NCBI RefSeq assembly: GCF_033568475.1
Contig: NC_133122.1
Coordinates: 152,100,861 to 152,164,860, forward strand
DNA length: 64,000 nt
DNA from: Henckelia pumila
Taxonomy: Eukaryota > Streptophyta > Magnoliopsida > Lamiales > Gesneriaceae
Direction: 5' to 3'
The position numbers were made by a program, and so were the translations under genes. The number at the start of each line of letters is the position of its first letter. Within the stretch, counting starts at the first letter, position 1. The notes beneath the pieces were generated by a model that did no database searches, was not told the DNA's origin, and saw nothing but the letters and a program-made list of their open reading frames with translations. Positions 14,801 through 63,023 of the stretch are shown here, one piece after another.

Positions 14801-15413
14801 AAGGACACTGAAAATGGATATGTCATTTTATGTTTTTACGTAGATGATATGCTTAACATCGGGAGCAATGATAAGATGATTCAATCCACTAAGAAATTGT
14901 TGAACTCAAAATTCTACATGAAAGATTTGGGATTAGCCGAAGTCATCCTTGGAATTAAAATACATAGAACATCAGAAGGTATGGTTCTAAGTCAATCACA
15001 TTATGTGCAAAAAATACTTGAAAAATTCAGTAAGGATGACTATGCATTTCCTAGAACCCCGATAGATACAAGTCAACATCTATCAAAAAATCGGGGTGAG
15101 TATATCTCCCAATTAGAATACTCTCGAGTAATTGGAAGTTTGATGTACTTAATGAGTTTTATACGACCAGACATAGCTTATTCAGTAAGCAAATTGAGCA
15201 GATTCACGAGTAATCCTAGACTTAAACACTGAAAAGCAATTGTCAGATTGCTAAGGTACTTAAGGTACACTCGTGATCATGGGTTGCACTATACAAGATA
15301 TCCCATTTTAATTGAAGGATACAGTGATGCAAACTGGATATCTGATATGAAAGACTCAAAATCTACAAGTGGATTTGTATACACTTTAGGAGGTGCAGCA
15401 ATTGCTTGAAAAT
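11876..15413 (+). pseudogene. copia gag-pol, first part, broken
   Basis: Gag begins at ATG 11876 and is read in pieces (11876-12109, 12125-12322). A CCHC zinc knuckle (CYNCGGPGHKASDC) lies at 12668-12709. The protease motif at about 12837 reads NTGA, so the catalytic Asp is replaced by Asn. The integrase is open over 13102-14082, with its HHCC region near 13219-13340 and DDE residues near 13410, 13597 and 13708. Reverse transcriptase runs over 14337-15100 with a YVDD box near 14840. RNase H starts near 15240 and is cut at 15413. Stops interrupt gag, the RT (around 14470, 14726 and 14778) and RNase H (around 15230). Non-functional. Confidence 0.9.
15409..15413 (+). other. Target-site duplication AAAAT, left
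   Basis: AAAAT directly precedes the gypsy 5' LTR and is repeated perfectly at 23051-23055 after the 3' LTR. Removing the insert rejoins the copia RNase H reading frame. Confidence 0.95.
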
Positions 15414-16984: not shown

Positions 16985-19900
16985 ATGGCGGGTCATGGTG
17001 ACGAGAGTAGCCACGGCAGCGTAGGTGGACGCTGGGGAAATCAGGATGATTGAGAGCATCGTCGGGGCCATCATCACCATCGCCATGATGATCACATGCG
17101 TTTCAGCATGCATAGGTTTATGCAGATGGGTCCGGAACCCTTGCTCGGAGGTGAGTCATTGGAGGATGCGGAGAACTGGCTATGGTATATGGAGGTCTGC
17201 TTCCGGGAGTTCCGATGCACTGAAGAGCAGCGGATGGAGACTCTTGATTTCCTGGTAGAAGGACGAGCTCGCAAGTGGTGGGATTCTGCTTCTGCACCTT
17301 TTATTGCAGCCCGAGGAGTTGCTACCTGGGATGAGTTTGCACGGCTTTCCATAAGCTGTATTTTTCCTCCTGCTCTCCGACAGGCGAAGGCAAGCGAGTT
17401 GCTGGGTTTGCATCAGGGATCGATGTCGATCGACGAGTACCAATTGAATTTCTTTTAGTTGCTGCCTTATTTTCCCCAGATTTTTTATAGCACGAAGGCG
17501 AAGTATAATCTGTTCCTTCAGGGCCTTAATCTGGAGATTCATGATCGAGTTGCTGTGGGAGATGACATGACTTATGAGGGAATAGTTAGTTGATGTCACC
17601 AGGCAGAGGACATCATCCGTCGTAACAGATCCTTCCTTTCCTCTAGACCCGCTAGTTCTTTGGGTACCCGTGCTCAGTCCTTCAAGAAGTCTGGTTCTAC
17701 TTCTTCTTCCTCAGGATCCGGTGATGTGATGCATTTTGGCAAGAAGAATCAGGGTCCTTGCAGACATTGTGGTGGGAATCATCTTGCCAACAGGTGTCGG
17801 AAGGTTTTCGGGGCATGTTTTTGATGCGGAGAGATTGGCCACCTAAAAAAGGATTTTCCACAGGCCGGGGGAGCAGGTTCTGGCTCAGGTTCTGGTTCTC
17901 AGACTTCGGTGCAGCAGAGACCACAGGGACAGTCGACAGGGGGTTCTAATCTGAAACCTCGTGCTTCCAGCCAAGTGTTTGCCCTGAGGCATGATCAAGC
18001 GGTGGATGAGAATGAGAAAGTTATAGCGGATATGTTCCTGTTATTTGATATACCTACTTTTTCACTCATTGACACTGGTGCATCTCATTCTTTCATTTCT
18101 ACACGTTTTGTTAAGAGATATAAGTTGTCATACATCTCACTAGACATAGTGGTTGTTGTCTCTACCCCAACGGGTCAGTTTGTGCCGGCTAAGCGTCTAG
18201 TGTTGGGCTGCCCTTTAGAGTTTGAAGGGAATGTCTTGATGGTGAATCTTATGATATTAGCAATGGATGATTTTGATTGCATTCTGGGAATTTATGTGTT
18301 GACTACATATAGAGCTTCAGTGGATTGTTACCAGAGATTGGTAAGATTTCATCCAGTTGGTGAAGACAGTTGGTTCTTCTATGGTGAGGAAGCGCGACCT
18401 CAGATGCCTTTGGTATCAGCTATGAAAGCTTGTAGAGCTTTGGAATCTGGCGCGGAAGGCTATCTCATCTATGCAGTTGATACATCCACTGAAAGTGTTG
18501 GTATAGAAGCTATTCCGATTGTGAATGAATTTTCAGATGTATTTCCAGATGAGATTCCAGGATTTTCTCAGTGCGTGAAGTCGATTTTGGCATAGAGTTA
18601 ATGCCAGGGACTTCTCTTATTTCTCGAGCACCATATCGTCTGGCTCCGTCAGAGATGCGTGAGTTGAAACAGCAGCTTCAGGATCTATTGGACAAGGGTT
18701 ATATTTGTCCCAGTGTTTCTCCTTGGGTAGCACCTGTTCTGTTCGTGAAAAAGAAAGATGGATCTATGTGTCTATGCATTGACTATCGCCAGTTGAACAA
18801 GGTAACAATCAAGAATAAGTATCATTTGCCTCGTATAGATGATCTGTTTGATCACTTGCAGGGTACTTCGGTCTACTCAAAGATTGATTTGAGATCGTGA
18901 TATCATCAGATACGAGTCCGAGATCAAGATATAGCCAAGACAGCATTTAGAACCAGGTACGGGCATTATGAGTTCTTAGTAATTCCATTTGGGTTGACTA
19001 ATGTGCCGGCTGTATTTATGGATCTGATGAATCAATTATTCCAGAAATTTTTGGACAAGTTTTTCGTTGTATTTATTGATGATATCTTGGTGTATTCACA
19101 TGATGTGAATGAGCATGCATTTCATTTGAGGCTGGTGTTGCAGACTCTGAGGAATAGACAGTTGTACGCTAAGTTGAGTAAGTGTGAGTTCTGGCTGGAT
19201 CGGGTGGTATTTCTTGGCCACATTATATCCAGGGATGGAGTTTCTGTGGATCCGAGCAAGATTGAGGCTGTAATGAATTGGTCGAGTCCTACGACGGTAG
19301 CTGAGATCCTTAGTTTTCTGTGTCTAGCAAGATATTATCGTCGATTTATCGCGAATTTCTCGCAGCTGGCTCGACCCCTGACACAACTTACTCGGAAGGG
19401 TGTGAATTTTGAGTGGTCCTCAGAATGTGAAGAGAATTTTTGTGAGCTTCGTAGACGGTTAACTTCTGTGTCTGTGTTGGCTTTGCCGTCTAGATCTAGA
19501 GGGTATGTGGTGTACATGGATGCTTCTCTTCAGGGACTGGGATGTGTCCTGACTCAAAACGGGCATGGGATTGCATACGCCTCTAGACAGTTGAAAGTTC
19601 ACGAGAATAACTACACAGTGCATGATCTTGAGTTAGTAGCTATTGTTTTTGCGTTGAAGATTTGGCGTCATTATCTCTATGGCGAGAGATTTGAGATCTT
19701 CTCAAACCATAAGAGTCTCAAGTATTTGTTTACTCAGGCAGAGTTGAACATGAGACAGAGAATTTGGATGGATTTGCTTAAGGATTATTATTGTGAAATC
19801 AAGTATCATCCAGGAGCTGCTAATCTCACTCCTGATGCCTTGAGTCGCAAGGTGCAAGTGTCTGCACTTCAGAATTGTTCTGTGGCAAGTGCAATTGAAG

Positions 19901-21407
19901 ATTGTTGTTCTTTAGGGTATACCTTCAAGCATAAGAAAGGTAAGCATAATATCCAGATGTTTGCGATCTTATCTGAGCCAGCTTTGTATTCTAGGATTAG
20001 AGATGCTCAGATGTCTGATCCTAAGACCCAGCGTTTGGCTCGTTTAGCCAGAGACGATAGTACGTATGGATTCCATTATCAGTCAGATGGTTTTCTCTGT
20101 TTGTCAGGCCGTATTGTTATTCCGGAGGATGATACTCTGAGGGAGGAGATTTTATCCCAGGCTCATCGTTCTAATTTGAGTATTCATCCGGGAAGCAACA
20201 AGATGTACAAGGATTTGAGTACTAGGTTCTGGTGGAAAGTAATGAAGAAGAGTGTGCATCAGTATATTTCGAGATGTTTGGTGTGTCAGCAGGTCAAGGC
20301 AGAACATCAAAGACCTGGATGGTTGCTTCATAATTTACCTATTCCTGAGTGGAAATGGGAATTGATCGCGATGGACTTCGTGACCCATTTACCGGTGGCT
20401 CGAGGAATTGGGATGCTACCTGAGTTGTGGTGGACCGACTCACCAAGTCTGCACATTTCATTCCTTATAACCGGGACTACAGCTTTGATAGGATGCCACG
20501 TTTGTACATCCAGGAGATTGTTCGATTGCACGGAGTGCCTGTGAGCATTTTCAGTGATCGAGACCCCAGGTTTAATTTCAGGTTCTGGGGGAGTCATCAG
20601 TGCGCTATGGGTACTACTCTCAGTTTGAGTACAGCTTATCACCCAGGGACTGACGGGCAGTCAGAGCGCAAGATTCGTACTCTTGAAGACATGTTGCGAG
20701 CATGTTCTATGGATTTTGGTCCCGCTTGGCAAGATCAGTTGCCATTGATTGAGTTTGCGTACAACAACAGTTACCATCACAATATTGGGATGGCTCCGTT
20801 TGAGGCGTTGTACGGGCAACGGTGTCGTACTCCACTGTTCTGGGAGGAAGTGGGGGAGCGACAGGTTGAGGGACCAGAGTTAGTCCAGCAGGCTGTTGAT
20901 ATTGTTGGACATATCAAGAAGAGAATTAAGACTGCGCAAGATCGACATGCTAGTTATGAGAATGTCAAGCACAGACCTTTGCAGTTTGAGGTGGGTGAGA
21001 AAGTATTCCTGAAAGTCTCACCATTTCGAAGGATTTTGAGATTCGGTCTCAAGGGAAAGTTATCTCCTAGGTTCATTAGTCCATTTGAAATACTGTAAAG
21101 TGTTGGAGATCTGGCTTACAGGATGGCGTTACAGCTGTATTTGTCAAGTATTCATGACGTGTTCCATTTTTCACTGTTACGACGGTATGTGGCAGATGAG
21201 TCTCATATTTTACAGCCGTCTAAAGTATAGTTGGATATAGATTTGACATACGTAGAGAGACCTTTGCGTGTCATAGGTCATAAGGATAAGGTGTTACGCA
21301 ACAAGATCATTCCTCTTGTTCTAGTTCAGTGGCATCGCTGAGGTACTAAGGAGGCCACTTGGGAACTTGAGAGTCGTATGCATACAGATTATCCAGAGTT
21401 GTTTTGA
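16985..21407 (+). pseudogene. gypsy gag-pol polyprotein, broken
   Basis: Gag starts at ATG 16985. The gag core lies at 17096-17458 and a zinc-knuckle region at about 17757-17870. The protease motif DTGASHSF is at 18071. Reverse transcriptase runs from about 18630, with its FIDD box at 19075-19086. RNase H starts near 19500. The integrase zinc region is near 20155-20300, with core residues near 20371, 20565 and 20667. A chromodomain-like tail ends at 21407. In-frame stops lie near 17063, 17456, 17593, 17821, 18898, 21096, 21229 and 21339; frame changes lie near 18565 and 20415. Gag and protease share a frame, as in single-ORF chromoviruses. Non-functional. Confidence 0.92.
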
Positions 21408-34664: not shown

Positions 34665-36931
34665 TCAAGCAAGACTTCTAGGTACAGCAGCAGACTTAAT
34701 CCCTTCTTCTCTAGGGGTGATTGATCGGAAAAAACGACCGGTCTTGTGAATCTTTAGCTTGACAGCAGGAACCTTTCGCGAAACAGCCTGCCATATCATC
34801 TGTACAGCATCATTTGCTTGTGATGGATACTGAAACTTGTAAAAGTTTTCGACTTCTTTTAGCCTTCCCCACATTCTGGTCCAGTCCGCCTTGGTAATGT
34901 TCCTGACAAGGTTTAGTAGGAACTTTTCTTTGAGAGCATCAGAAGAACGGACAAATACACAGAATTCTGAGTAGTCAAGGACATCTTCGTATGGAAGCTC
35001 GATTTCATCACTAATAATGACAGGTACACAGTGGCTAGCTATGGCATCAAATAGACGGTTTGATGATGGAGTGTCGCCTGCTATGTTGAGGCAGAATTTG
35101 GATGAGCGCATACCAGTGGAAGCTTGTTTGATACCATCCTTCTGAACACTTCCAAATGCGAAGTGCACATCCTTTTCATTTTTCAGCATGTAATACAATT
35201 CTTGACGAATTATTCCACCCTGAAAGCAGCCAAGAAAGTGTTTGACGTAGTTCAATTAAAGAAATCCTGAAGTTAACTGTTTCAAGAATGATTAAGATAT
35301 CATATTACTCAGCAATTTGCCACAAGCACCATCAAATTCTATTAACGCGAAAATATGGGAGTCATGCTACTCCATTTATATAAGACCGAAATTAAAATTA
35401 AAATAACTACAAATAATGCGAGTGGATCTCGGCAGAAGGTTATGCATATTAGCCAAGATATATATGATAAAATATCTTCACAAACAAACAGGATCAGCTA
35501 AAAGAATGAACATCTTCTCCAAGTATAAGCAGAGCCCAAGGAGAGGGGGAAAAAGATTCTTCATGTGTTTTCACACAAAAAGGTGATACTTATCCCTCAG
35601 CGAGGGAAAAAATAAGCACTTTGATTCTGGACTAGAAGTTTGTTGAGTATACCTACATGAACATAGGTGCAAATCATTCAAAGTAATCAAATTGACACAA
35701 CTGATTAATAAATTTGTGTCCCTATTCTTTCAACCACACCACTTTAATCACAGTGGTAACTTAAATAACAAAAGTACGAATCGACAAACAAGAAGAGACC
35801 ACAAAAATCATAGCTTTTAGTTCTGATCAAACACAGTTATGCTTATCAGTAAGAACCAAAAATCTCATGGGACATAGGTTTTAAGAAACCAGCTCATGTT
35901 GCAATACTCAAAAATGCATGTAAATATACAAGTATTTTACCCCAGAAATACAAACATATATCTAAAGAACAAAGGTTTCTTACATCTTTTCGGTAAATAG
36001 CCCCTTGGAAATAGAGCAACGTCTTGCGACTATCAAAATCGGATGCATCATCTGTATAACTTCCAACAACATGCCTGTAAGGCGCAATTACGTCTTTCTC
36101 AACATTAGCAATAGTTGGAGAATACCTTCCGAAATCTGAAAGAATAAATATCGCAGGCCAGAGCTTTGTTCTAGCATCTAAAAGACTATTAGGATGGTGG
36201 GCCATGACTATGTGATCATTTCCACCAGATCTTTTCCATTCATCCTGATCCGTCAAAAAAGTAACCAATTTCTCCTGCAATAAACTATTAATACTCCTTT
36301 TCTGGTTTGGCTTCAGCTTTGAGTACCTATTATAGCAAATGGACGAAAAGAAGGGAACAAAAACAACATCAGCTTCACTAGAATTACGTACTCTAATAGC
36401 ACTGCGGCCTCCCAAATCTTTGGTAAATTCAGAGTTCAAGAGGTCCAAAGTCAGCAAATATTCTATGCTATGCTGCAAATTCAATCCACCGGGGTAGTCA
36501 GGGACCTCGGATCGAACATCCGGCCAAACAACACCCCTTCCCCGGCCTTTCCAGCCCAACAGATTAAAATGGAACTCTGATGGCAAGTCATACATGAAAA
36601 CCTTGAGAATATGCTCACTAGAATCACACTTTCTTGAATTTCTACTCAAGATCACAGCTTCTTCATTAATTGAAGCTCTGGCTTGTAAGTTGGCATCAAG
36701 ATTATTATTTTTTGCCACGGATGGAAGCTTGTAATAGTCAATAGAATAAATCCGGCCAGCCGACCTTAACACTAATAACCAAGATAATATGAACACTGCT
36801 GATATCAATAAGAAAAAAAGGAACAAATATCTATGAGTAAAGAACCCCATTTTTGACATTCTATCCCCAATAAGTCTAAGTTCAATTAAAAGTTGGAGCA
36901 AGACCGAACCAAACTTCAAACATCGTCGCAC
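34665..36931 (-). CDS. GT47 exostosin-family glycosyltransferase, ARAD-like
   Basis: A type II Golgi membrane protein of family GT47, whose plant members add sugars to wall polysaccharides. The closest resemblance I recall is to the putative arabinosyltransferases ARAD1/ARAD2, but the substrate is unproven. Two exons: 36931-35984 and 35219-34665, with a GT-AG intron at 35983-35220. The product is 500 residues from the first ATG. A single membrane anchor lies at about 35-56, then the exostosin domain from about 107. Signatures are [13 protein letters not shown] (194-206), [10 protein letters not shown] at the exon 1 end (307-316), and [19 protein letters not shown] in exon 2. In-frame ATGs at residues 25 and 28 are alternative starts and would leave the anchor intact. 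Convergent to RFC3. A partial relic of this gene is at 25196-25605. Confidence 0.92.
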
Positions 36932-37370
36932 CCTTGCTTCGTATGATTACAAAGACTGGAAATTCAGAGAAAATCTACTCGTAGAATAGGGAAAGCAATA
37001 AGCCCAAATGTAGAACACTTCATCAAGAATCACATTGTAAAATAGGTTGCATGCATTGAGACCAGATAACCCAACACAATAAAGAATCTGATATAACAAA
37101 TCTGATAATCCTACATAAACAGTGATTCGGAGCAAAAAAGGAAAGAGCTGATATCTAATGCAAACAGGGGGATTCCGCAGATGGAAGATGCAACAAGCAA
37201 CAAAACCCAGATGGCGTTTGGTTTCAAATAGTCAACCCGACGAAAACATTCAAGAAACGAAGCTAGAGAGCAACATACATCTGGGAAACGGAGAAAGAAT
37301 GGCGAGGAGAGGGAGAGAGAGGGAGAGAAAAGGTCAATTAAGGTGAAAGGAGCCGAGCACCAAGACAATG
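36932..37370 (-). promoter_or_regulatory. 5' leader of the GT47 gene, CT-rich
   Basis: On the minus strand 37345-37290 is rich in CTCTCC runs, typical of plant 5' UTRs, and leads toward the ATG. Short upstream frames occur (37135-36947, 62 codons; 37368-37111, 85 codons). Whether they are in the mRNA or part of a leader intron cannot be told. Confidence 0.5.
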
Positions 37371-48508: not shown

Positions 48509-48529
48509 CATTACAAGAAAAATGCACTA

Positions 48530-48765
48530 ACACAACACTTAAAAAACAACATTTTTAGTAAAAAGTGTTGTAATTTTTTGAAAGACAATGCTTTTAGTGA
48601 AAAGCGTTGTCGTTATATGTTTTTTATTTATGAAAGACAACGCTTTATTTACAAAGCGTTGTAGAATAGGCTTTTTTTGGGGTCAAAGACAACGCTTTTA
48701 AAAGCGTTGTCTATTAGCGTTTTTTTTACCATATATCACAATACTTTTTAAATAGTGTTGTAGAA
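48530..48765. repeat. Left subterminal repeat array of the CACTA element
   Basis: Five or more copies of AAAGACAACGCTTTT or its complement AAAGCGTTGT, some degenerate, between 48541 and 48765. Confidence 0.85.
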
Positions 48766-49419
48766 AATCTATTATTTTTATTTAAATTAAATCATAAAAT
48801 AAATAATATTACCCAGATCCCCAAATCAACCCTTCCCGATTCCTTCTCTTCTCCAATCTGATCACTAGCCTTTCTTCTTTTTCTCTCTTTCAATTGAAAA
48901 TCCCTTCGCCGTCCTTTCTCTTGAATCATAAAAAACTGGTTTGGAGTTTTGTTCCCCACAACATAATCTTCATTTTGAGCCAAATATCGACTGATTTGAG
49001 CCCTTTTTTCGTGGGACCGAAGTGTTGCCGCGACTTGATTTTGTGCCCTTCTTCTCCGGTGAGTTTCAACCCCGATTTTCGGTCGATTCTTGGTGTTCTA
49101 GCGTGGATTCAAAATTTAAGAAATTATCTATTATGAATTTGTGTTTTTGTAGCCCGTATGAATCACGATCCGACAAGAATGGCTGTTGTTCCGTTCCAGC
49201 TTTTTTAGCTTTGAGTTTTGGCTTTATAATTAAGTTCTGTTTGAATGTTTTTTCTGAAGACTTGTTTAATACCTGTCAAAATATTTAGTATATTTTATTT
49301 TCAAAGTCTTTTAATATTTTTAATATTTTTTAGCTAATATTGCGCTCTTTTTTGTGATTTTCGCCGTCTGGAAATTCATGTTTCAAGAATCCGAAGCCTG
49401 ATACTTGCTACCTGTAACA
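48766..49419 (+). other. Captured 5' leader-like DNA inside the CACTA element
   Basis: CT-rich from about 48830, then a possible leader exon ending near 49060 with a donor-like CCG/GTGAGT. A duplicated phrase, AGCTAATATTG...GCCGTCTGGAAAT, occurs at 49334-49382 and 49482-49530. Probably the promoter and 5' leader of the captured FKBP gene. Frames here are short and unconvincing. Confidence 0.45.
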
Positions 49420-50064
49420 ATGGCCTTCTGGGGTTTGTTCTTTCCCCATTCCGCATTTATTTTGCTTGCGCGTGTGAGCTAGCTAATATTGTGCTCTTTT
49501 GTGTGATTTTGGCCGTCTGGAAATCCAATAGTTACTAATTGCCTTATTTTTTTATCGTAGTTATTTGCAAGTACGAGGTGCTTTACTTTTGTTTTTTTGC
49601 CGTGTCTCTCTGTACTCGTGCTTAAAATGCAGTGTTTTTCTGTTTTCGTGCGCGTGTGTTATCTGAAGATTGTATTCATCGTGATTCGGATTCAGAAGAT
49701 AATGAAATAATTTTAACTTTCAAGCAATTTTCGATGTGCTGGATTTATTTTACTATGATTGGTGTCAAATATGTATGTATTTTTATGCATTTTTGTGTGT
49801 TGGCATCTTGTACTGCCAGCGTACTCTTTCTATTTTTTTTTTTTAAATGTGCCCATTAAAGTTATACCCTTCTTCATCTTATTCCCTCTCTTCCAGGTGT
49901 TGAAGTAAAACCTGGAAATCCAGTTACTCATGCTTGTGAAAAGGCTAGAGGAAGGCTTCGAATTTCGTAGGTAATTTTTTCATAGTCCTTGAAAATAAAC
50001 TTCAAAGTTCAAACTGTAATTTGACCATTTAACTTTGAATGCTGATGATGTTATTTTATTACTT

Positions 50065-50069
50065 ACTAC
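50065..50069. other. Target-site duplication ACTAC, left
   Basis: ACTAC precedes the left LTR and is repeated exactly at 59402-59406 after the right LTR. Confidence 0.95.
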
Positions 50070-51910
50070 TGTTGGAGAACGGCGATCAGATCAATTAGAA
50101 TTGATACCCGGTGCAGCGAAAGTTTAAAAATTTTATATGAAACGATTCCATAATGGGTATCAAAACTTAACGATTAAATTGTGTGTGTAAAAATTAAATA
50201 AAAATTATAAATTTTTACCTCCAATCTCGAATCGAGATTATGGACACCAACAGATTGCTCTGCTCTTGTTGTATATCCCTGGAACTGATGGACGAACTGT
50301 TCTTCAATCAGGTCCACGAACAGAGATTTAATCCCTCTGATAGATTGCACTAGAAAATCTATCAGAAGTTTCTACGAAGAGAATTAACGAATTTGATCCG
50401 TTAAACCAGACTGTAATTCAAAATTCACAGGCTGGATTTTTCCTGAGCAGAGGGGAGGGGGGCGGCCACTATTAGAGAGAAAACTAGAGTTTTTTCGAAA
50501 ATTGTGACCTGTTGTGTGTAATTTCTGTACTGCAATAACTTATTTATAATGTAGGCCGCTAACAACTTAGGGCCCATTAGTCATAAGTTCAAGCCCGACA
50601 AGCAAAGCCCACATGTTCAGAAATTAATATAAAATTCATCATGACTCCGATTGATAAACCGATTTCACCAATGTGCACAGAAACCATTTCTGCACCTTTT
50701 AAAGTCAAGATAAATTTTTCTGAATCCGAATTCAGTGATTTCCAAAAATGTCCATCCCTATGTCATTTTAGGAAATCTTACTCCTCTACTCTTAATTAAG
50801 AAGTCCAACTTCTTTGTTCATTAAATTTAAATCTTTAAATTTAACTATCTCAACGGGGATTAAAAATCCATTACTCTGTGTGACCCTCAATGGTTCAGGG
50901 ATACAACTAGCCGTGGGCTCACAACTCCTTGTGACTCGGAACAACAATTTCCGACTTGCCCATCGAATCATGGTAAGAGCGCCTAGCAACATCGCCCCAT
51001 GATTCCCTAGGTATCACTGATAGTGCCTGCAAGAACCAATAGATTTTGGTTAGCGTACAGTACGGTCCCTTCATCCATATATCCCGATCGAATCAACAAC
51101 CATTGGTAAATCGAGAGTCGTTCGAGATTCGATAACTATGCAATACATCTTGAAGATCAAATAGTGACATCGCATGTGCTACTAAGAAACCATTTCTTAA
51201 ACCACATCATGTACTCTGGCCAGAGATTCGTCACACTAATATCTCCTCAGATCGCATAGGATATCCACACTCGCAAGTATGTGATGAATCCTTGAAAACA
51301 AAGCATCGACTCCTATATGTGTTGTAACTGTACCCAATCCCGACACCTGATGACCCCAATAGAGTCGGTAAACGAGTCAAAGCACAGTACTAGCATATAG
51401 AGTCTCAATGATGTTTCAAGTAGTAAGGACTAATGGTGTACAACCAACCGCGGACTTTATCCACTCGATAAGTGATAACCACTTGGAAAGTCCGGATAGG
51501 GTAGTTCGATCATTCATCGTATGAATATCCATTTGCATGCTTCGAACATCTCTATGTTCCTTACCAATGAAACGTGGTACTCTGCATCGCAAATGCTAGT
51601 CTCAAACTCGAGCGATCCTTATCCTTATTATCGGACGGCTCAATCGACTAGGAACAGTTTAGAATACACAGTGACTATAAGATGTGTTTCATGATAGACA
51701 TCTCCATGTTCTACCACATCTTACATACACTATAGTATATTCAAGGTCTTTATCAAAACAACAATAGTATATCACAATATAACAATATGAAGAAAGATAA
51801 AGTCATTGCCATTAATAAAAGTGTAAATTATATTAAACAAAAGATTGTTTATACAAAGAGTCATCAAAGCCCTTAGCCACAAGTTGGCTCACCGGGCACC
51901 TACTCTTTCA
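50070..51910 (-). repeat. 3' LTR (copia, minus strand)
   Basis: 1841 bp, TG...CA ends in either orientation. A TATA-like TTATAAATA on the minus strand lies near 50541-50549. Confidence 0.92.
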
Positions 51911-51924
51911 ATCTCCCACTTGCC

Positions 51925-53170
51925 CTAAAGCCAACTAGTCATACTACGTAGACCCGTTGCTTCGCGATGTTTGTCAAATAATGGTCCTGGCAAGGGCTTA
52001 GTAAGTGGATCAGCGATATTGTCTGCAGAGGCCACTCTTTCGACAGTGATGTCTCCTCTTTCCACAATCTCCCGGATGATGTGGTATTTCCTCAGTACGT
52101 GTTTGGATCTTTGATGAGACCTTGGTTCCTTTGCCTGAGCAATGGCACCCGTGTTGTCACAGTACACCGGGACTGGACCAACAACTTCAGGAATGACGCC
52201 CAACTCTTGGACGAAATTCCTCATCCAAACGGCCTCTTTAGCAGCAGCTGATGCTGCAATGTATTCTGCCTCAGTGGTGGAATCCGCTGTGGTGTCCTGC
52301 TTGGAACTCTTCCAAGAGACAGCACTGCCATTGAGCATGAACACAAATCCAGAGGTTGACTTCGAGTCATCCACGTCACTTTGGAAGCTAGAGTCGGTAT
52401 AACCTTCCAATTTTAGTTCTCTTCCTCCATATACCATGAACATATTCTTAGTCCTTCGTAAGTACTTAAGAATGTCCTTCACGGCTTTCCAATGCATTTG
52501 ACCGGGATTAGCTTGATATCTGCTCGTGACACTCAGAGCAAATGCTACATCCGGTCTGGTAGATATCATCCCATACATGATACTACCTATGGCTGACGCA
52601 TATGGTACATGTGTCATTTTCTCTATCTCTTCATCAGTCTTGGGACACATAGACTTGGATAGAGAAACTCCATGACACATGGGTAGATGTCCTCTCTTGG
52701 ACCCATCCATTGAAAACCGTTTCAATATGGTGTCGATGTAGGTTGATTGAGTGAGTCCTATCATTCTCTTAGATCTATCTCTATAGATCTGTATCCCTAG
52801 AATATAGGATGCCTCACCCAAATTTCATCGAGAATCTACCTGATAACCATATCTTTGTTGACTGCAACATCCCTACGTCATTCCCAATGAGTAGGATGTC
52901 ATCAACATAAAGTACTAAGAATGTCACAGCATGCTTAACTACTTTCTTATACACGCATGGTTCCTCCGGGTTCTTGATGAAACCAAAATCCTTTATTGTT
53001 TCATCAAATTTCTGGTTCCAACTTCTTGATGCTTGTTTTAGACCATAAATTGATCTCTAAAGCTTGCATACCTTATGCTCGCTTCCCATGGATGTGTACC
53101 CCTCAGGCTGCTTCATATAGATTTCTTCCTTAATGTCTCCATTAAGAAAAGCAGTCTTCACATCCATTTG
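51925..53170 (-). pseudogene. copia reverse transcriptase (C-terminal part) and RNase H, broken
   Basis: A 298-codon frame (52821-51925) covers the end of reverse transcriptase and RNase H (STTEAEYIAAS, ADPLTKPLPG). Upstream, a YVDDILLIG catalytic box lies near 52889-52915. A frame change near 52825 and stops near 53050 and 53168 separate these parts from the integrase frame. Confidence 0.9.
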
Positions 53171-54838
53171 TCATATCTCATAGTCATACCAAGCAGCTAT
53201 GACAATAAGGATTCTTATGGACTTAAACATTGCAACTGGTGAAAAGGTTTCATCATAGTCAACTCCTTGTCTTTGAGTATAACCTTTCGCCACCAATCGC
53301 GCCTTGTAGGTCAATACCTTACCATCAGGCCCAAGCTTTCTCTTGTAGATCCATTTACACCCTATTGGAACAATTCCATCGGGAGGATCTACTAAAGACC
53401 AAACTTGGTTTGTATGCATCGAATCTATTTCCGATTGCATAGCTTCAAGCCATAAATTTGAATCCGCATCAGAAATTGCTTCCTTGAAGTTTCTTGGATC
53501 ACATCCAACATCGGGTTCATCTTGATCCCCTTCAAGAAGAAGACCATATCGAATAGGAGGTCTAGAAGTCCTCTCGGATCTTCTAGGTACAGGCGTGTCT
53601 ATCAATGGTTCCTGAGGTGTAGGATCGTTATTTTGTATTTCGGGTTCTTCTCGAATTTCTTCGAGTTCCATCATCTCGCCTTTCTTATCCAATAAGAACT
53701 CCTTCTCCAAGAAGGTGGCATTCCTTGAAACAAACACCTTTGTTTCAGCAGGATAATAGAAATAATATCCGATTGAATTCTTCGGATACCCTACAAAATA
53801 ACATAAGGTGGATCGACTATCCAACTTATCTCCCACTGTCTGCTTCACGTAAGCAGGACATCCCCAAATCCTCAAGTACGAATACTTAGGAGCTTTGCCA
53901 TTCCATAACTCGTATGGTGTTTTGTCCACTGCTTTAGTGTGGACGTTGTTCAACAACAATACCGCCGTTTCAAGCGCATAGCCCCAAAACGAAGGTGGAA
54001 GCTCAGTGAAGCTCATCATGGATCGAACCATGTCCAACAAAGTTCGATTACGACGCTCCGATACACCATTCAGCTGTGGTGTCATAGGAGGAGTCCACTG
54101 AAAGAGAATCCCATTCTCTTTCAGATAGTCCAAAAACTCGGTACTTAAGTATTCTCCACCTCGATCCGATCGAAGTGCTTTAATACTTTTACCTAGCTTG
54201 TTTTCTACTTCAGCCTTGAATTCTTTGAACTTTTCAAATGCTTCAGACTTATATTTCATTAAATATAAATACTCATACCTAGAATAATCATCAGTAAAGG
54301 TAATGAAGTAGGTGTGGCCATATTGAGTACCAACTCTAAATGGACCACAAACATCTGTATGGATCAAATCCAACAGATTTTGACTACGCTCAGGTTTCCC
54401 CTTAAAAGGAGATTTAGTCATTTTTCCTTTCAGGCAGGATTCACAAGTAGGTAGAGAGTTAATATCAGACATATCAAACATGCCCTCTCCCACTAGCTTG
54501 TTCATCCTCCTTGAGGAAATATGACCTAGCCTAGCGTGCCAAAGGTTTGCCGGGTTTTGACTATCGATTTTCCTTTTGTTTGTTGTTGCCGGTTTATCAA
54601 CATAATTTATTGGAACGTCTTTTAGTTTTAAGTTATATAGATCGTTTTCAAGTTGTCCATTTCCAATCAAACATTCATTCTTGTAAATATTGCAAATCTC
54701 ATTCACAAAATTGCAAGAATAACCATCTCTATCAAGCATAGAAACAGAAATAATGTTTTTAATCAAATCTGGAACAAATAAAACATCTCTCAAAAGTAAC
54801 TTAAAACCGTTCTGCAAAATTAAATAAATATCTCCCAA
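53171..54838 (-). pseudogene. copia integrase and N-terminal reverse transcriptase
   Basis: A 555-codon open frame with the GAG-pre-integrase zinc region (LWHARLGHIS), the integrase core (HTDVCGPF, SDRGGEYL, SERRNRT) and the start of reverse transcriptase (CKWIYKRK, YKARLVAKGY). It ends at a TGA. Its upstream join to the protease is out of frame by one base. Confidence 0.92.
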
Positions 54839-55836
54839 GCTTTAGCTTCAACTCTGGAACCATTTCCGAGCCTCAGCTGGGTCTCACCCATTCTAAGCCT
54901 GCGACTTCTTGTCATCACCTGCAAATCATTGCAAATGTGAGATCCACATCCGGTATCCAATACCCAAGAAGTAGTATTAAGTGAAACATTTATTTCAATA
55001 TAGAACATACCCTTCGCAGTTCGCAACTTCTCTAGATATTCCTTGCAGTTACGCTTTCAATGACCGGGCTTCTTGCAGTAATGGCAAACATCCTTGGATT
55101 TTTCCATGTTTGAAGCCTTTGTCTTGTACTTCTTCTCGGGTTCGATTTTCTTGGGTGAGGCAGAACGTTTCTTACCCTTTGTACTTGGCCCCTTCTTAGC
55201 AGAAGAAGAGGAGCCCACCAAGAAAGCCGGTTTATCCTTCTTTAAAGTGGATTCATATGTCACAAGCATATTGACCATCTCTTCAAGGGAGGCCTCTATC
55301 TTGTTCATATTGAAATTCACCACAAATTCGTCAAACGAAGAAGGAAGAGATAGAAGTAGTAAGTCCATGTTGAGTTCATGCTCCAACACCAAATCAAGGG
55401 TTACCAACTTCTGTATGAGCCAAATTACTCGTACCCCATGATCACGGACCGAGGTCCCTTCACGCATGCGACACGTCATTAGCTCCTTTACAGTAGCGAA
55501 CCTTTCAGCCCTCGATTGAGCCCCAAAAAGTTCCTTGAGTTGTACGTGAATGTCAGCAGCATTCACGGTGTCCTCAAATCGCCTCTGCAGTTCATCAGAC
55601 ATCGAGGCTTGCATATAGCATTTGGCCTTCATATCATGGTCCCACCATGTATCAAGTTTGGCTAACTCTTCCGGACTTATGTCAGCTGGTGCTTCCTTCG
55701 GAGGAGATTTTTCTAACACGTAGAGCATCTTCTCCGAAGTCAAGACAATCTTCAACTTACGGAACCATTCCGTATAGTTTGCGCCAGTCAATTTATTTTG
55801 TTCGAGGATCGAGAAAAGTGGATTACGCGAATTCAT
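54820..55836 (-). pseudogene. copia gag and protease
   Basis: Gag probably starts at MNSRNPLF (ATG 55836; an in-frame ATG lies 30 bases upstream). A zinc knuckle CHYCKKPGH is cut by a TGA at 55057, before its last Cys. The same frame continues into the protease, with DTGCGSH at 54957, and ends at 54820. Confidence 0.9.
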
Positions 55837-55866
55837 CTTTATGAAATACTGAAAAGAAACAGACAA

Positions 55867-57541
55867 ATATCAGTGATTGTTTAAGTAATTTACTAAGACA
55901 TAAAATAGGCGAAATTTATTTTATGAATCTCACTCCCACTATTTTAACGATTTCACTACCCTCTAGTGAAAACGGGAAACTGTTTTCCTTAGTGAGAACA
56001 TGGAGTCCAATTGACAAACTATGGTCCCGAATAATATCAGCCAACCATAATTTTCAAAAGGTAGAGCCCAATTGGCAACCTCCACGTTTTTACCTCATGT
56101 CCAATAAGGGCCCAATAATATGACGCCGTTTATTGTGACATGTCAAGATGACCCATCAATATTAAGTTGTGATGGACGGTCGCCATTTGGATCCCCCAAT
56201 AATATGAGCCGATCCCATGGGAGTTCCACCCAACTTACAACATGTGTCGATCCAATGTACAGCTTTCCGACGAACGACCGTATCCGCGGGTAGCATCTCA
56301 TACATTGATCGTTGATGGAAGGTAGGAACATTTAAACAAATTTAAATTTCCTTTATTTATCTTGATATCAATTTTAAATCATATTTAAAATGAGGGATTT
56401 TAATTTTGAAAATTTGTCTCATCTTTTTTTTAAAATTTTGTATGCTTGCCGGATTCACATAATTTTGTCTAAAACATGCATACAACAATAGTATCACATA
56501 TTATATAGGATGATCGATTCCATTTCTAATCGACCCGTGGTTGCCAATCACGAGTCTTAGTCCAATCCTAGGTAATATGCAGTATGCAATGCAATCCTAT
56601 TACATTGAGCTTCCAATTTACATTTCTTCTGTCTTTATTGTCTGCTGGGCCCACCTCCATCTTCAAATCTTCATCTCCCACTAAGTCTAATGTATTTACA
56701 ATAAATAACAATGACAAGTAGGGGATACATTTTTAAGGGGTGGGAACGGGCCATAAACCAAGCCCACTTTTATTACATATGACAATTCATATTGGGCCAT
56801 AAACCAGGCCCATTAATCAATCCAACAACAATAAAAACAAATGTAAATTCCTAACATACACCTATAAAATTGGTCATGGCAATCGATCATCCTTATCCAA
56901 TAACATTTAATTCAAAATTAATTTATTGGATAACATGCAATTTCAATTTAAATTTAAAAGGATAAAATCATATTCCATATATAAAATCTTATTTTACATA
57001 CAAAATAATATTTTATCTTTCTATCAAATAAAATCATATTTTATCTATAAAATCCAATTTTATACATAAAATCATATTTTACTCAATATATCCATAAGAT
57101 CATATCTTATCATCAATTGTACCAAAAATAATTAATTTCAAAATTCAATTTAACGGATATTTAAATTTTCCAAAAATTCAAATTTATCCAAAAATCAATT
57201 TTAAAATTTTCGGACTCGAACAATTCGATCCGACGCCTCGTGGACCAATCAAAAACAATTTTCGATCGGACCAAAAATAGAATTTTAACATATTAAAATT
57301 TTAATTTAAAAATTAAAAATAATTTTTCGCGGGCCGCCCGGGACACTCCCGGGCTGCCCGCGCCCCAAAAGGGGCTCGAGCCGGGCAGCGATCACGTCAC
57401 TGCCCATGGGCAGCGATCCAATCGCTGCCCGGGTTTTGCCCGAAATTTTTTTTTTATTTTTAAAATATTTATTTTGTTTCAAAAACCGAGGCTTAAAATT
57501 TTTTTGTACAATCGATTAATTTAATCGCTTGATCTGAGCAA
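55867..57541 (-). other. Long 5' leader of the copia element
   Basis: About 1.7 kb between primer site and gag, AT-rich except for a strongly GC-rich patch at 57330-57445 with repeated GCCCGGG and GGGCAGCGAT words. No long frame. Confidence 0.7.
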
Positions 57542-57557
57542 CCTGGCTCTGATACCA
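57542..57557 (-). other. Primer-binding site, Met tRNA type (minus strand)
   Basis: On the minus strand TGGTATCAGAGCCAGG follows the 5' LTR after one base. Confidence 0.93.
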
Positions 57558-57558
57558 C

Positions 57559-59401
57559 TATTGGAGAACGGCGATAAGATCAATCAGAATTGATACCCGG
57601 TGCAGCGTAAGTTTAAAAATTTTATATGGAACGATTCCATAATGGGTATCAAAACTTAACGATTAAATTGTGTGTGTAAAAATTAAATAACAATTATAAA
57701 TTTTTACCTCCAATCTCGAATCGAGATTATGGACACCAACAGATTGCTCTGCTCTTGTTGTATATCCCTGGAACTGATGGACGAACTGTTCTTCAATCAG
57801 GTCCACGAACAGAGATTTAATCCCTCTGATAGATTGCACTAGAGAATCTATCAGAAGTTTCTACGAAGAGAATTAACGAATTTGATCCGTTAAACCAGAC
57901 TGTAATTCAAAATTCACAGGCTGGATTTTTCCTGAGCAGAGGGGAGGGGGGCGGCCACTATTAGAGAGAAAACTAGGGTTTTTTCGAAAATTGTGACCTG
58001 TTGTGTGTAATTTCTATACTGCAATAACTTATTTATAATGTAGGCCTCTAACAGCTTAGGGCCCATTAGTCATAAGTTCAAGCCCGACAAGCAAAGCCCG
58101 CATGTTCAGAAATTAATATAAAATTCATCATGACTCCGATTGATAAACCGATTTCACCAATGTGCACAGAAACCATTTCTGCACCTTTTAAAGTCAAGAT
58201 AAATTTTTCTGAATCCGAATTTAGTGATTTCCAAAAATGCCCATCCCTATGTCATTTTAGGAAATCTTACTCCTCTACTCTTAATTAAGAAGTCCAACTT
58301 CTTTGTTCATTAAATTTAACTCTTTAAATTTAACTATCTCAACGGGGATTAAAAATCCATTACTCTGTGTGACCCTCAATGGTTCAGGGATACAACTAGC
58401 CGTGGGCTCACAACTCCTTGTGACTCGGAACAACAATTTCTGACTTGCCCATCGAATCATGGTAAGAGCGCCTAGCAACATCGCCTCATGATTCCCTAGG
58501 TATCACTGATAGTTCCTGCAAGAACCAATAGATTTTGGTTAGCGTACAGTACGGTCCCTTCATCCATATATCCCGATCGAATCAACAACCATTGGTAAAT
58601 CGAGAGTCGTTCGAGATTCGATAACTATGCAATACATCTTGAAGATCAAATAGTGACATCGCATGTGCTACTAAAAAACCATTTCTTAAACCACATCATG
58701 TACTCTGGCCAGAGATTCGTCACACTAATATCTCCTCAGATCGCATAGGATATCCACACTCGCAAGTATGTGGTGAATCCTTGACAACAAAGCATCGACT
58801 CCTATATGTGTTGTAATTGTACCCAATTCCGACACCTGATGACCCCAATAGAGTCGGTAAACGAGTCAAAGCACAGTACTAGCATATAGAGTCTCAATGA
58901 TGTTTCAAGTAGTAAGGACTAATGGTGTACAACCAAAACCGTGGACTTTATCCACTCGATAAGTGATAACCACTTGGAAAGTCCGGATAGGGTAGTTCGA
59001 TCATTCATCGTATGAATATCCATTTGCATGCTTCGAACATCTCTATGTTCCTTACCAATGAAACGTGGTACTCTGCATCGCAAATGCTAGTCTCAAACTC
59101 GAGCGATCCTTATCCTTATTATCGGACGGCTCAATCGACTAGGAACAGTTTAGAATACACAGTGACTATAAGATGTGTTTCATGATAGACATCTCCATGT
59201 TCTACCACATCTTACATACACTATAGTATATTCAAGGTCTTTATCAAAACAACAATAGTATATCACAATATAACAATATGAAAAAAGATAAAGTCATTGA
59301 CATTAATAAAAGTGTAAATTATATTAAACAAAAGATTGTTTATACAAAGAGTCATCAAAGCCCTTAGCCACAAGTTGGCTCACCGGGCACCTACTCTTTC
59401 A
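57559..59401 (-). repeat. 5' LTR (copia, minus strand)
   Basis: 1843 bp. One terminal base differs (CCAATA for CCAACA at the minus-strand 3' end). A TATA-like TTATAAATA on the minus strand lies near 58030-58038. Confidence 0.92.
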
Positions 59402-60825
59402 ACTACATAGTACATACTCTGGTTAAAACAATTTTTTCTCACCAATCATTATCATTCCCGGCTGGTAAGAGATTTCTTGTTCTGACGGTTTTTCTTTTCT
59501 GGTAAAGAAACCTTGTCCTTCATATCAGGTTTGGGTTGTTAATGACTGAAAAAATGTTTATTATTGCCTCTTATTCAGTTCTAGGCTTGATGTTTGATAT
59601 CTAGTGATATTTAATATTAACTTTTTTGGTCTGTCTGTGGGGTTATCTATTGTATAGGCTACTCTGGGAATCAGTGATGCAACAAAGAAGAGCTTAGTAC
59701 AGTGTAATGTGGGTAACAGAAGTCCGGTTTTGCTCTGCGCTTTGCTGCCCAATAGTACAGAGTCATGCCACTTGGATTTGGAATTTGAGGAAGCAGATGA
59801 TGTAACTTTTTCTGTTATTGGCCCTCGAAGTGTCTATCTTACTGGTTATTATGTCCAACGAAATTCGCAGTCAAATACTCACAGCGATACGTATCCTTTT
59901 TAGCCATTTTCTTTAGTTATATCACAGTAGGCACCCATTGGAAATAATTTAAATAGTCAAATGTTATTGTGATTTGTGTCATTTGACGTTTTAATTAATA
60001 TGAAACACAACATCGATACACGTTGAAATTTTCAGCTTTCCTTTACTTTCGCCCATAGAGAATCATATGGCATGGATATAGAAAACTCTCATACGGAGGG
60101 ATCTAGTTATGATAGTGCTGATGATAAGTATGAGAACAGTTTTATTGACGATGATGAATTACAAGTTTCGCCACCATCCCCTGTTTCAAGCGACAAAGGT
60201 AATTTTTGCATGATTCAGGTTCTAATTCTCTCCCTCAATTGCTGGATGCTTCTGGTGGATAATTAATGCTCTTTATGAAGTCCATAAGTTATGAGTCTTT
60301 AATTTTAGGCCTAAAATAAAATATGTTATACAGAAAACCTCTGCAAAAAGGATGATCGTTGAGTAGATATTGGTTTTGTTCAATCTACAGTTGTTGCCAT
60401 GAAACTTGAAACTTAGTATGTAATTTGTCCATTTTTGTTATGATCATATGATCGTTTGCTATATAGAATAGATGCACATCATCGACATTTATATGGGGGT
60501 TTCACCTTTTGTTTTGCATTTTTGGGTTTAACAAAGAAACAGACGAGGCTCTGCTGGACGATAACAGAATGCATGATGGAAAGGGTCGTCAAGAAAATCG
60601 TAAGAAGAAATACCAAGTGATTGAGTTGGATAGTGAAGATGACAACGGGTATCTTTTATCTGTATTTAAGAACAAAAGATCTCCGAAGACAACCATGTCA
60701 AAAGATGGAAAAAAGAGTGCGCAGGTTACAGAACATACGTGCAGCAAGTCCGAAAATGGTGGAATCTTTGGCAGCGAATCAACTGGAAAGGCAAGTCCTC
60801 CGGATGTGAATATCGAACCAGAAAG

Positions 60826-61138
60826 GTGATAATTGGACTGGACTTATCACTCAACATCCTTTATTATATTTCTTTTTTCTGAAAAATTTTGGAAGAGTGT
60901 AGTCCTCCTTTTTAATCTTGCATGCAAACGTCGTACATGATTTCTTTTTATTCGTTTTACCAGTTTTTAGCTTTGGAATTTTTTTTTCAAGATTTTAATT
61001 AGTCCTTGTTATACTTGTTAAGAAAGTGCATTGATTTTACATGATTTCTTTTTGTGATATGATTTTCAGAAAAGAAGAGAAAGAATTAATGAGAGGTTTA
61101 TGTGAAAACTAATTAGTAAATGTGTTAATGTTTGCAGT
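60826..61138 (+). other. Captured intron-like DNA between FKBP and oxidase fragments
   Basis: T-rich, intron-like. Contains the possible FKBP exon 61071-61113 (phase-compatible, ends in TAA) and a TTTGCAG acceptor at 61132-61138. Confidence 0.45.
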
Positions 61139-61391
61139 TGCTAAGCTCGGATGAGCTATGGACGAGCAGAGCGACTCGATGTTCAGGCTGAATCACTACC
61201 CTCCAATCCCGGAGGAATCCGAAGGCCACAATTTGATGATGGGATTCGGAGAACACACAGACCCGCAGATCATATCTGTGCTGAGATCCAAAAACACTTG
61301 GGGGCTCCAAATCTCTCTCAAAAATTGAGATTGGATTTCCGTTCTTCCTGATCACAATTCTTTCTTCGTTAATGTTGGTGACTCCTTGCAG
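61139..61391 (+). pseudogene. Captured exon of a gibberellin 2-oxidase
   Basis: GA2-oxidases are 2-oxoglutarate, Fe(II)-dependent dioxygenases that inactivate gibberellins. The frame from about 61172 reads SDSMFRLNHYPP-like sequence, then GFGEHTDPQIISVLRS with the metal-binding HxD, and ends with NSFFVNVGDSLQ at a splice donor (CAG/GTATAT near 61392). A stop follows the acceptor-proximal part near 61152 and a TGA lies inside the exon near 61327. Neither the preceding exon nor the following one (second iron-binding His) is present, so it is a fragment. Confidence 0.88.
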
Positions 61392-61504
61392 GTATATTCA
61401 CTCTTTATATAATATATATATTCATTTACATTTTGCAAACAATTCATGAGCTACGATAATTAATTTCTCCACCCACATACATTTTTATTTTTTGGAAAAT
61501 TAAA

Positions 61505-61575
<71 letters not shown>

Positions 61576-61721
61576 GAGATTCAAAAGTGCATGTATATTA
61601 TGTATTCTGAAAAGCAAGCTCTAATAAGTTGAAGTGCGGGCAAAATGCAATGAGTTGATAAAATACAGAAAATCATGTTTAGTTCTACTCACTATAATGT
61701 CCACCAATCCGAATATTGCAG
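61392..61721 (+). repeat. (AAT)n microsatellite in captured intron-like DNA
   Basis: The run spans about 61503-61575. The surrounding sequence is AT-rich with no gene. Confidence 0.8.
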
Positions 61722-61839
61722 GGATCTTGTTTATTTTGTTGCATTATTTAGCCCAAATGGCGAGTATCTGGCCAGTGAATCATTAGATAAATTTTTGCAC
61801 ATATGGTCTGTGAAGGAAGCCAATATAGTCTATGGATAA
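61722..61839 (+). pseudogene. Captured WD40 exon, HOS15/TBL1-like
   Basis: After a TTGCAG acceptor the frame reads FSPNGEYLASESLDKFLHIW, a WD40 repeat very like that of plant HOS15 (a TBL1-type repressor subunit), then SVKEANIVYG and a stop at 61837-61839. An extra codon near FSPNG and the loss of the rest mark it as a fragment. Confidence 0.8.
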
Positions 61840-62589
61840 ATTTCTATTATCTGGTCAGAATTTCTGTATAAATGCAAGTAAAATTATGATGAATAAAAGG
61901 AAAATAGAAAAAAAAATTCTTTCGATTAATATTTTTGAATACATGGAATGTGGAAATTTAGTTTACATGTGATTTTCGTGCTTGGGTATGGAACACTTTT
62001 CATTAATTTTAATAACAAGGGTGTATTATTTGGTGTTCTGCATACATCCCAGTCATTGTTACTTTGTTACTATATCAAATAAATTCGTATTGCCTCTAAT
62101 TTTGATTGTTATTTAATGCATAAAGTAATGAGGTTGCAACTAGGAATGTAGTTTGTTCAACCATTATAATTTGTTCAACCATTTATTTTTAGCAACTTGT
62201 GGCTTGAATTTTGTAATTCGTAGTTCATGTTCTTTGCTGCCAAATATGTGTTTGATTTTATTTTTCATTTTAATCTATTCATATTTGTTTTTATTTTTAA
62301 TAATTTACAGTATGGAGATACAAATTAAAGAAAAAGAGATTGTTGCGGCTTTTATGAAAGCTTGGGACGCTAACATGTGCTGAAGAAAGGAATCAAAGCT
62401 TTTCGAGATTAACGCATAGTTTTTTTCCTAGTGTTCATTAATTTAGAATGTAATTATTTTTATATTTGAATGATTTATAATATTGGAAGACTCTATATTA
62501 AATTTTATTTTATAAATTTTTGAATTTTGAGCGACTTATAATATTGAAAATTTGTGAATTAATTTTTTTTTTGTTTTTTATTTGAACAA
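61840..62589 (+). other. Remaining interior of the CACTA element
   Basis: AT-rich. A short frame at 62312-62383 follows an ACAG acceptor-like site and could be one more captured exon of unknown origin. No other gene is recognised. Confidence 0.4.
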
Positions 62590-63003
62590 AGACAACGCTT
62601 TTTAAAGTGTTGTCTTTACCAGAAAAGACAACGCTTTTTTGAAGCGTTGTCTTTTCAAGATACAACGACACTTAAAAGCATTGTCTTTTCCAAAAACGAC
62701 AACGCTTTTTATAAAAGACAACGCTTAAAAAGCATTGTCATTTTTAGATACTACAACGCTTTTTAAGCGTTGTTATTTCACTTAAAAAGCGTTGTCTTTT
62801 CCAGAAACGACAACGCTTTTTATAAAAGACAACTCTTAAAAAGCGTTGTCGTATCTAAAAACAACAACACTTTTTAAGCGTTGTCGTTTCTGGAAACGAC
62901 AACGCTTTTTCTGCGTTGTCTTTGAGCGTGGTCTTTTACAACACTGTCTACGACAACGCTTTTTCGGGGACATTAACAACGCGGAAAAAGCGTTGTCTTT
63001 GGC
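62590..63003. repeat. Right subterminal repeat array of the CACTA element
   Basis: More than a dozen copies of GACAACGCTTTTT or AAAAGCGTTGTC alternate in both orientations, forming many small hairpins. Confidence 0.9.
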
Positions 63004-63023
63004 CATTTTTCTTATAGTCCACC

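Follow-up and report, generated by a model that had tools for sequence, protein, structure and literature searches.

The interval from 48509 to 63019 (14,511 bases) of a 64,000-nucleotide stretch of Henckelia pumila DNA, here called the window (C3:152100861-152164860), is probably a decayed, non-autonomous composite Pack-CACTA transposon. CACTA-type ends and subterminal repeats enclosed fragments of four host genes, namely FKBP43, an RSL-type bHLH, a gibberellin 2-oxidase (GA2-oxidase, GA2ox) and HOS15, all in sense orientation on the plus strand. The donors of this host-gene DNA were located elsewhere in the genome (884,658,702 bases in 133 contigs were searched), and no CACTA transposase was found in the interval. 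A nested Ty1/copia retrotransposon made up 9,332 of the 14,511 bases, leaving about 5.2 kb without it.

An earlier reading of the same DNA, made from the letters alone (the sequence-only reading), had described a single Pack-type CACTA transposon that held pieces of three host genes on one strand. The one-strand arrangement and the FKBP, GA2ox and WD40 pieces were all recovered, but the count of three fell short, the RSL-type bHLH being a fourth donor. The two ends of the proposed transposon also stood; what the description missed was the Ty1/copia element and the mosaic nature of the left end.

CACTA ends and their relatives

The left end-like sequence, CATTACAAGAAAAATG at 48509, and the right one, which ends at 63019 and reads GACTATAAGAAAAATG as the reverse complement, each differed from CACTAYAAGAAAAATG by one mismatch. 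At up to 3 mismatches the window contained two further matches to CACTAYAAGAAAAATG, each with 3 mismatches. On the two strands of the 64-kb window the motif GACAACGC had 17 copies, and 17 of the 17 fell within the ends, at 48604-48711 and 62591-62997; shuffled sequences gave a mean of 0.5 and a maximum of 3. Inverted subterminal repeat arms were present besides the direct repeats. The end matches and the confinement of GACAACGC to both ends confirmed the ends and subterminal arrays of the sequence-only reading.

The terminal boxes of the window copy were CATTA and GACTA, each with one change from CACTA. Relatives of the left end, the right end and the right-hand module were located elsewhere in the genome, a search that the sequence-only reading had proposed. 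Right ends were located for 17 of them in 19 loci (the misses were L020 and L023), and the sequence CTTGTAGTG, i.e. CACTACAAG, was present at 16 of these 17 ends. On the left side, 16 ends were located in 15 of 18 loci (the misses were L041, L051 and L053), and 15 of them started with CACTACAA. The family has the terminal inverted repeats (TIRs) and the subterminal repeats of the CACTA (En/Spm) superfamily, and it is tied to a related autonomous-type element with a TNPD-type transposase through the group-A link described below.

The left end was a mosaic, in which 48509-48904 and 48906-49328 matched two different CACTA repeat groups (A and B). The group-A part was 96% identical over 397 bases to the copy at L058 and 95% to that at L057. 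When the best 40 of 265 candidates were scored, the inner 145 bases of the left end were found in at least 16 other places. The group-B segment, in the same sample, had at least 22 matches, 10 of which covered the full 423 bases at 86-91%, and no copy of the A/B join besides that of the window was present.

In six of the 16 listed group-A relatives of the left end (C3:90.40, C4:35.11, C1:88.59, C3:137.10, C1:144.37 and C4:41.58 Mb), Transposase_21 lay 3.9-5.7 kb downstream and was encoded on the same strand. This domain was listed at 150 places in the genome, of 570 candidates; under uniform placement the chance expectation for the link was 0.008 from the 150 domains, and 0.03 if all 570 were real. 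The group-A element at C3:90.40 Mb contained, about 14.6 kb on, a GACAACGC array and a CTTGTAGTG end. Its right end was 72% like that of the window over 479 bases, and its transposase frame had two stops. The left end was assigned to a transposase-linked CACTA group because of this element and the downstream Transposase_21 in 6 of the 16 relatives. The family ends CACTACAAG and the linked Transposase_21 genes also supported the CACTA identity proposed before.

Stop-to-stop open reading frames (ORFs) with a minimum length of 60 aa in the interval itself were scanned for a CACTA transposase. Of the 21 such ORFs outside the retrotransposon, 20 gave no match to the domain; the 21st (59658-59900) was FKBP exon 3, which was domain-scanned separately. 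This agreed with the sequence-only reading, which had noted no transposase. The subterminal palindrome gave 0 matches when viral contigs were searched for it. The features of the interval are collected in Table 1.

Table 1. Components of the interval, in window coordinates
Feature	Positions	Strand	Description
Left CACTA end, group A	48509..48904	+	mutated TIR CATTACAAG; subterminal GACAACGC/GCGTTGTC repeats
Group-B CACTA segment	48906..49328	+	ends such as CACTACAAGAAAATGTTAATTCAA about 450-500 bases upstream in relatives
FKBP43-type part 1	49331..50069	+	96.5% to donor from C3:46903710; runs to start of intron 2
FKBP exon 1	49420-49432	+	
FKBP exon 2	49897-49970	+	ends TAG, donor CAG
Nested Ty1/copia	50070..59401	-	long terminal repeats (LTRs) 50070-51910 and 57559-59401; gag 55057-55869; integrase/reverse transcriptase (RT) 53171-54841
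FKBP43-type part 2	59402..60942	+	97.8% over 1543 bases; end of intron 2 to start of post-exon-5 intron
FKBP exon 3	59658-59890	+	
FKBP exon 4	60059-60198	+	
FKBP exon 5	60543-60825	+	
RSL-type bHLH	60977..61162	+	intron, first codons of KRRERINER exon, then LLSSDELW exon
GA2-oxidase	61158..61679	+	partial exon (TGA in frame), partial next intron
HOS15-type last WD40 repeat	61676..61829	+	exon from 61722, upstream intron kept
Right-module internal sequence	61830..62590	+	common to family; putative terminal exon 62312-62383 (MEIQIKEKEIVAAFMKAWDANMC*)
Right CACTA end	62591..63019	+	inverted/direct GACAACGC array; mutated TIR CTTATAGTC, family CTTGTAGTG

Captured gene fragments and order of assembly

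The FKBP fragment was aligned to an unbroken donor at C3:46903710-46905990 with 97.67% identity over 2275 aligned positions, and its exons retained GT/AG splice sites. It matched Pfam NPL (1.1e-14), and its nearest solved relative was FKBP43 (1.5e-25, vs 1e-15 for FKBP53). The donor locus extended to the peptidyl-prolyl isomerase (PPIase) motif GMRVGDKRRLVIPPSMGY at about C3:46908718, and no GACAACGC or CACTA-like end (at most 1 mismatch) was found in 20 kb there. Because the locus continues into the PPIase motif and GACAACGC and CACTA-like ends are absent from these 20 kb, the donor locus looks like the FKBP gene itself.

The donor has two copies of exon 1, at 46903650 and 46903799, 149 bases apart. 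The capture started at C3:46903710, downstream of the first copy and 89 bases before the second, and since it begins between the two, the donor promoter was not captured. This contradicted the idea of the sequence-only reading that a captured FKBP promoter drives transcription. If the element is transcribed at all, the promoter would more likely be at the CACTA left end, or else outside, and not that of FKBP. As an observation on the donor gene in its own right, both exon-1 copies are held in a tandem duplication of about 149 bases (L002 positions 395-593, C3:46903601-46903799).

The second donor, which we take to be an RSL gene, aligned in two pieces: 60977-61098 to C1:76207255-76207383 (82%) and 61094-61162 to C1:76207672-76207741 (96%). 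Between them 288 bases of the donor were skipped. The donor gave the peptide pieces KRRERINERLRILQNLVPNGTK and LLSSDELWMYAPIAYNGM, with an HLH match of 2.6e-7. The GA2-oxidase donor was located at C1:172979640-172980121 (minus), and the piece matched the GA2ox3 structure 6ku3 with an expectation value (E) of 3.3e-13. The WD40 piece was 90% identical to C4:143299068-143299215. Its donor gene was found with a HOS15 C-terminus (92% identity) and the piece also matched TBL1XR1; from these we presume the name HOS15.

The four donor sites were thus spread over the contig of the window (C3:46.9 Mb) and others (C1:76.2, C1:173.0 and C4:143.3 Mb). With the parental genes located and aligned, the proposed capture of host-gene DNA together with its introns was upheld, now with four donors. 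Adjacency of the pieces without CACTA ends, which the sequence-only reading had named as a ground against it, was not seen in this genome, the only one examined: they lay apart at the four donor loci. All but about 37 bases of the non-retrotransposon DNA could be attributed either to a CACTA family or to a donor far off in the genome. Left without an assigned source were the 34 bases of 60943-60976 and, at the left joins, three more.

The right-hand part of the element belonged to a repeat family. From 61676 to the end, at least 43 matches were found (40 scored of 1,094 candidates), and the HOS15 exon piece with its tail was present in at least 17 other places (33 matches listed). The relatives of this module contained extra HOS15 DNA directly upstream of 61676, and other common sequence before it. 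Because they hold more HOS15 DNA there, it was a pre-existing HOS15 capture that the GA2ox join truncated. The HOS15 piece therefore probably arrived with the repeated module and was not captured by the present element.

The putative terminal exon of the module was present in 18 of 19 right-module loci and was lacking in L020, where the match ends at 62156; of the 18 copies, 14 had no internal stop or frame shift. A SAP30 origin of this exon, indicated by Pfam at E 0.041 only, was rejected after comparison with SAP30 genes: the two listed genes gave just short chance DNA matches (best E 0.11) and had different last exons.

The GA2ox-HOS15 join had one other copy, at C2:171281694 (94% over 979 bases). 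This copy shared the TGA stop of the window and a 3-base insertion relative to the GA2ox donor. In the C2 sister (L020, C2:171280194-171284140), an alpha-galactosidase exon (Melibiase_2, 1.4e-9) was joined directly to GA2ox, upstream of the place corresponding to window position 61178. The region C2:171.266-171.292 Mb was considered as a single sister element with a group-B left end and rejected, the nearest end triplets being unequal (CCT and CTG). The C2 sister is therefore taken as a relative for its GA2ox-HOS15-right part. The tail of L020 is interrupted by about 9 kb of other DNA before 171291535.

The copy number decreased in steps across the element. The right tip (62779-63019) had at least 39 other copies at 91-95% (best 40 of 846 candidates), the HOS15 piece at least 17, the GA2ox join one, and the FKBP joins 0. 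With every candidate scored, no FKBP or RSL-GA2ox join was met elsewhere, and no left join elsewhere was among the best 40 of 265 candidates.

The Ty1/copia element lay within FKBP intron 2, flanked by the target duplication ACTAC, and contained the Pfam domains gag, rve and RVT_2, with integrase before RT. The FKBP donor has an intact site where it inserted. Its LTRs were identical at 1815 of 1841 aligned positions (98.6%), a Kimura two-parameter distance (K2P) of 0.0143. Plant substitution rates are 1.3e-8 and 0.7e-8 per site and year, at which the LTR divergence corresponds to an insertion age of about 0.5-1.0 million years. The FKBP capture predates this insertion, since the K2P of the capture (0.0237) is larger than that of the LTRs. 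The order of events would then be the many-copy HOS15 right module, followed by GA2ox, then FKBP43 and RSL with the patched left side, and finally copia.

The cargo carried marks of decay. A donor CAG was changed to TAG at 49968, so that the FKBP frame stops at codon 29, and the GA2ox exon piece contained an in-frame TGA. Among 14 FKBP codon changes, 10 were non-synonymous (the stop included) and 4 synonymous. Divergence from the donor was 0.0219 in the exons and 0.0246 in the introns. With the donor taken as the older state, C>T plus G>A substitutions numbered 21, vs 7 of T>C plus A>G. This pattern fits a silenced, decaying copy, to judge from the base changes. The cargo was without sign of protein selection, with stops in both FKBP and GA2ox. 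The copia insertion in the FKBP intron and the changes in the two terminal boxes make it probable that the element is now immobile.

These observations bear on a functional reading of the mosaic, in which the four fragments would be spliced into a selected chimeric transcript or protein. Their common orientation and the retained FKBP splice sites are what such a gene would have. We consider it very improbable: there are stops at FKBP codon 29 and in GA2ox, the exons have diverged like the introns, non-synonymous changes account for 10 of the 14 codons that differ, intron 2 is interrupted by a 9.3-kb retrotransposon, and no donor promoter is present.

FKBP43 pieces were also found in other CACTA-ended elements. 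The element at C1:50823798-50830040 (L011/L012) contained pieces from about C3:46904695-46905436 and 46906394-46906832, and a relative with the same inner join was present at C1:58.35 Mb (L017). Another, at C4:211029034-211033822 (L013), contained the piece 46904483-46904992. Both extra captures resembled the donor more than the window copy (88.9 vs 87.4%, and 90.5 vs 89.3%), so we regard them as separate and older. With that of the window, these make at least three captures of FKBP43, each in a different CACTA element of the genome. It may be imagined that, before decay, a single sense RNA from a transposase promoter in the group-A left end ran across the four pieces and gave rise to small RNAs against the four regulators, FKBP43 being a recurrent CACTA target; as a whole this chain is improbable.

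One unit or adjoining insertions

How the pieces came together may be pictured as follows. Loss of the inner ends of CACTA insertions lying next to or within one another would have produced the joins and left the intervening DNA framed by the outer pair. The transposase of a group-A CACTA, which shares the subterminal motif GACAACGC, could have moved the element in trans. Later, copia would have entered the captured FKBP intron, and the terminal boxes would have mutated. In the C1:173796822 region (L047), a CACTA left end abuts oppositely directed right-module sequence of another CACTA element; apparent nesting of this type is what the capture model requires.

Several findings weigh against a single mobile unit. 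The left and right ends came from different CACTA subgroups, and no listed group-A left end was near any listed right end. The whole mosaic occurred once among the matches listed; only sub-modules recurred. The 39 listed relatives of the right tip were all more than 3 kb from the 42 listed HOS15-module matches, and copies of that module were about 73-91% like the last 240 bases of the window tip where matched; the tip may be one more join with a separate history. In a right-module element at C1:150.57 Mb, no left end was met in the roughly 6.2 kb read upstream from the right end.

The target site gave a mixed result. Taking 63019 as the family end gave TCC as the left and CAC as the right flanking triplet. 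Both would be TCC had two terminal bases been lost from the right end, an alternative that needs fewer changes. Two end pairs joined by proximity also had unequal triplets, CCT/CTG at the C2 sister and AGT/CAT at C3:90.40 Mb. Equal triplets were present in 2 of 4 other end pairs, at C1:50823798-50830040 (GAT) and C4:211029034-211033822 (GCT).

When the joined flanks (260 + 260 bases) were used in search of an empty site, none of the best 40 of 2,293 candidates spanned the join, and the left flank matched only itself among them. The right flank, from 63024 to at least 63279, was an LTR-like repeat starting TGTTAG 4 bases after the CACTA end, with at least 38 other matches at 77-95%.

These points would be accounted for if two CACTA insertions, the left with FKBP and the right with RSL/GA2ox/HOS15, adjoined each other and lost their inner ends without ever having moved as one. 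The ends from different subgroups, the single occurrence of the mosaic among the matches listed and the lack of a canonical 3-bp duplication are in its favour. On the other hand, no DNA of local flanking origin could be made out between the pieces, where about 37 bases alone lacked an assignment, and loss of two end bases would allow a TCC/TCC duplication. In the published model, in the part of the text available (PMC8903248), such a state is the step before mobilisation. We regard this possibility as unlikely, though not negligible. The sequence-only reading had singled out ends from two separate elements as the finding that would count against it. On this score the different subgroups and the ambiguous 3-bp duplication told against a single element, and the lack of recognised local DNA between the pieces told for it.

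Helitron and Pack-MULE-type elements also carry gene fragments, according to the available part of PMC1947982, yet an origin from these, from retrotransposon transduction or from plain segmental duplication is scarcely credible in view of the CACTA TIRs, the GACAACGC arrays common to at least 39 other right ends, the transposase-linked left-end group, the kept introns (hence no reverse transcription) and the joining within 5.2 kb of donors from three contigs. For the composite Pack-CACTA, the interval appears to be built of Pack-CACTA parts and to work like one; its mobility as one unit is putative.

Three other features were noted in the window outside the interval. Ty1/copia remains with integrase and RVT_2 domains lay at 12473-15232 (+), and Ty3/gypsy-type remains (RVT_1, RNase H and Integrase_H2C2) at 17825-21098 (+). 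At 34665-36946 (-) there was a host gene of the exostosin GT47 type, in at least two pieces.

Relation to known gene-capturing CACTA elements

Among the matches listed, there was no literature joining Pack-CACTA with FKBP, gibberellin 2-oxidase or HOS15. In the part of Gisby and Catoni (2022; PMC8903248) that was available, Pack-TYPE elements are described as arising from re-mobilised neighbouring insertions, with the newer DNA inside, and the maize Pack-CACTAs hold the most distinct loci. The present element resembled the Pack-CACTA and Pack-TYPE elements of Arabidopsis, rice and maize treated there, in that non-autonomous CACTA ends surround exons and introns of several loci. As predicted in that text, its outer parts were repeated and its inner parts unique. 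Unlike those described there, its left side was a patchwork of two CACTA groups, its copy was broken by a nested copia, and a sister element shared half of its cargo but not the other half.

Multi-gene Pack-CACTAs are known, and their assembly order is usually hidden; here most joins could be ordered from one genome. The sister with alpha-galactosidase in place of RSL/FKBP represents a cargo exchange upstream of a common module. The model of capture by neighbouring insertions becomes testable in Henckelia pumila.

Chenopodium CACTA-like elements likewise contain host gene fragments inside CACTA (PMC8978399). In the available portion of that report the fragments are upstream of a transposase-associated domain, whereas none was found in the present element.

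A close likeness was to Tgm-Express1 of soybean, which the accessible text of Zabala and Vodkin (2007; PMC1947982) describes as a 5.7 kb CACTA that contains exonic and intronic DNA from five unrelated genes; the present CACTA was 5.2 kb without the retrotransposon, with four genes. Tgm-Express1 is located within a gene, and spliced chimeric transcripts were shown to contain its fragments, whereas the present element is known from DNA alone. The present case is ordinary in kind, and its history is unusually well resolved.

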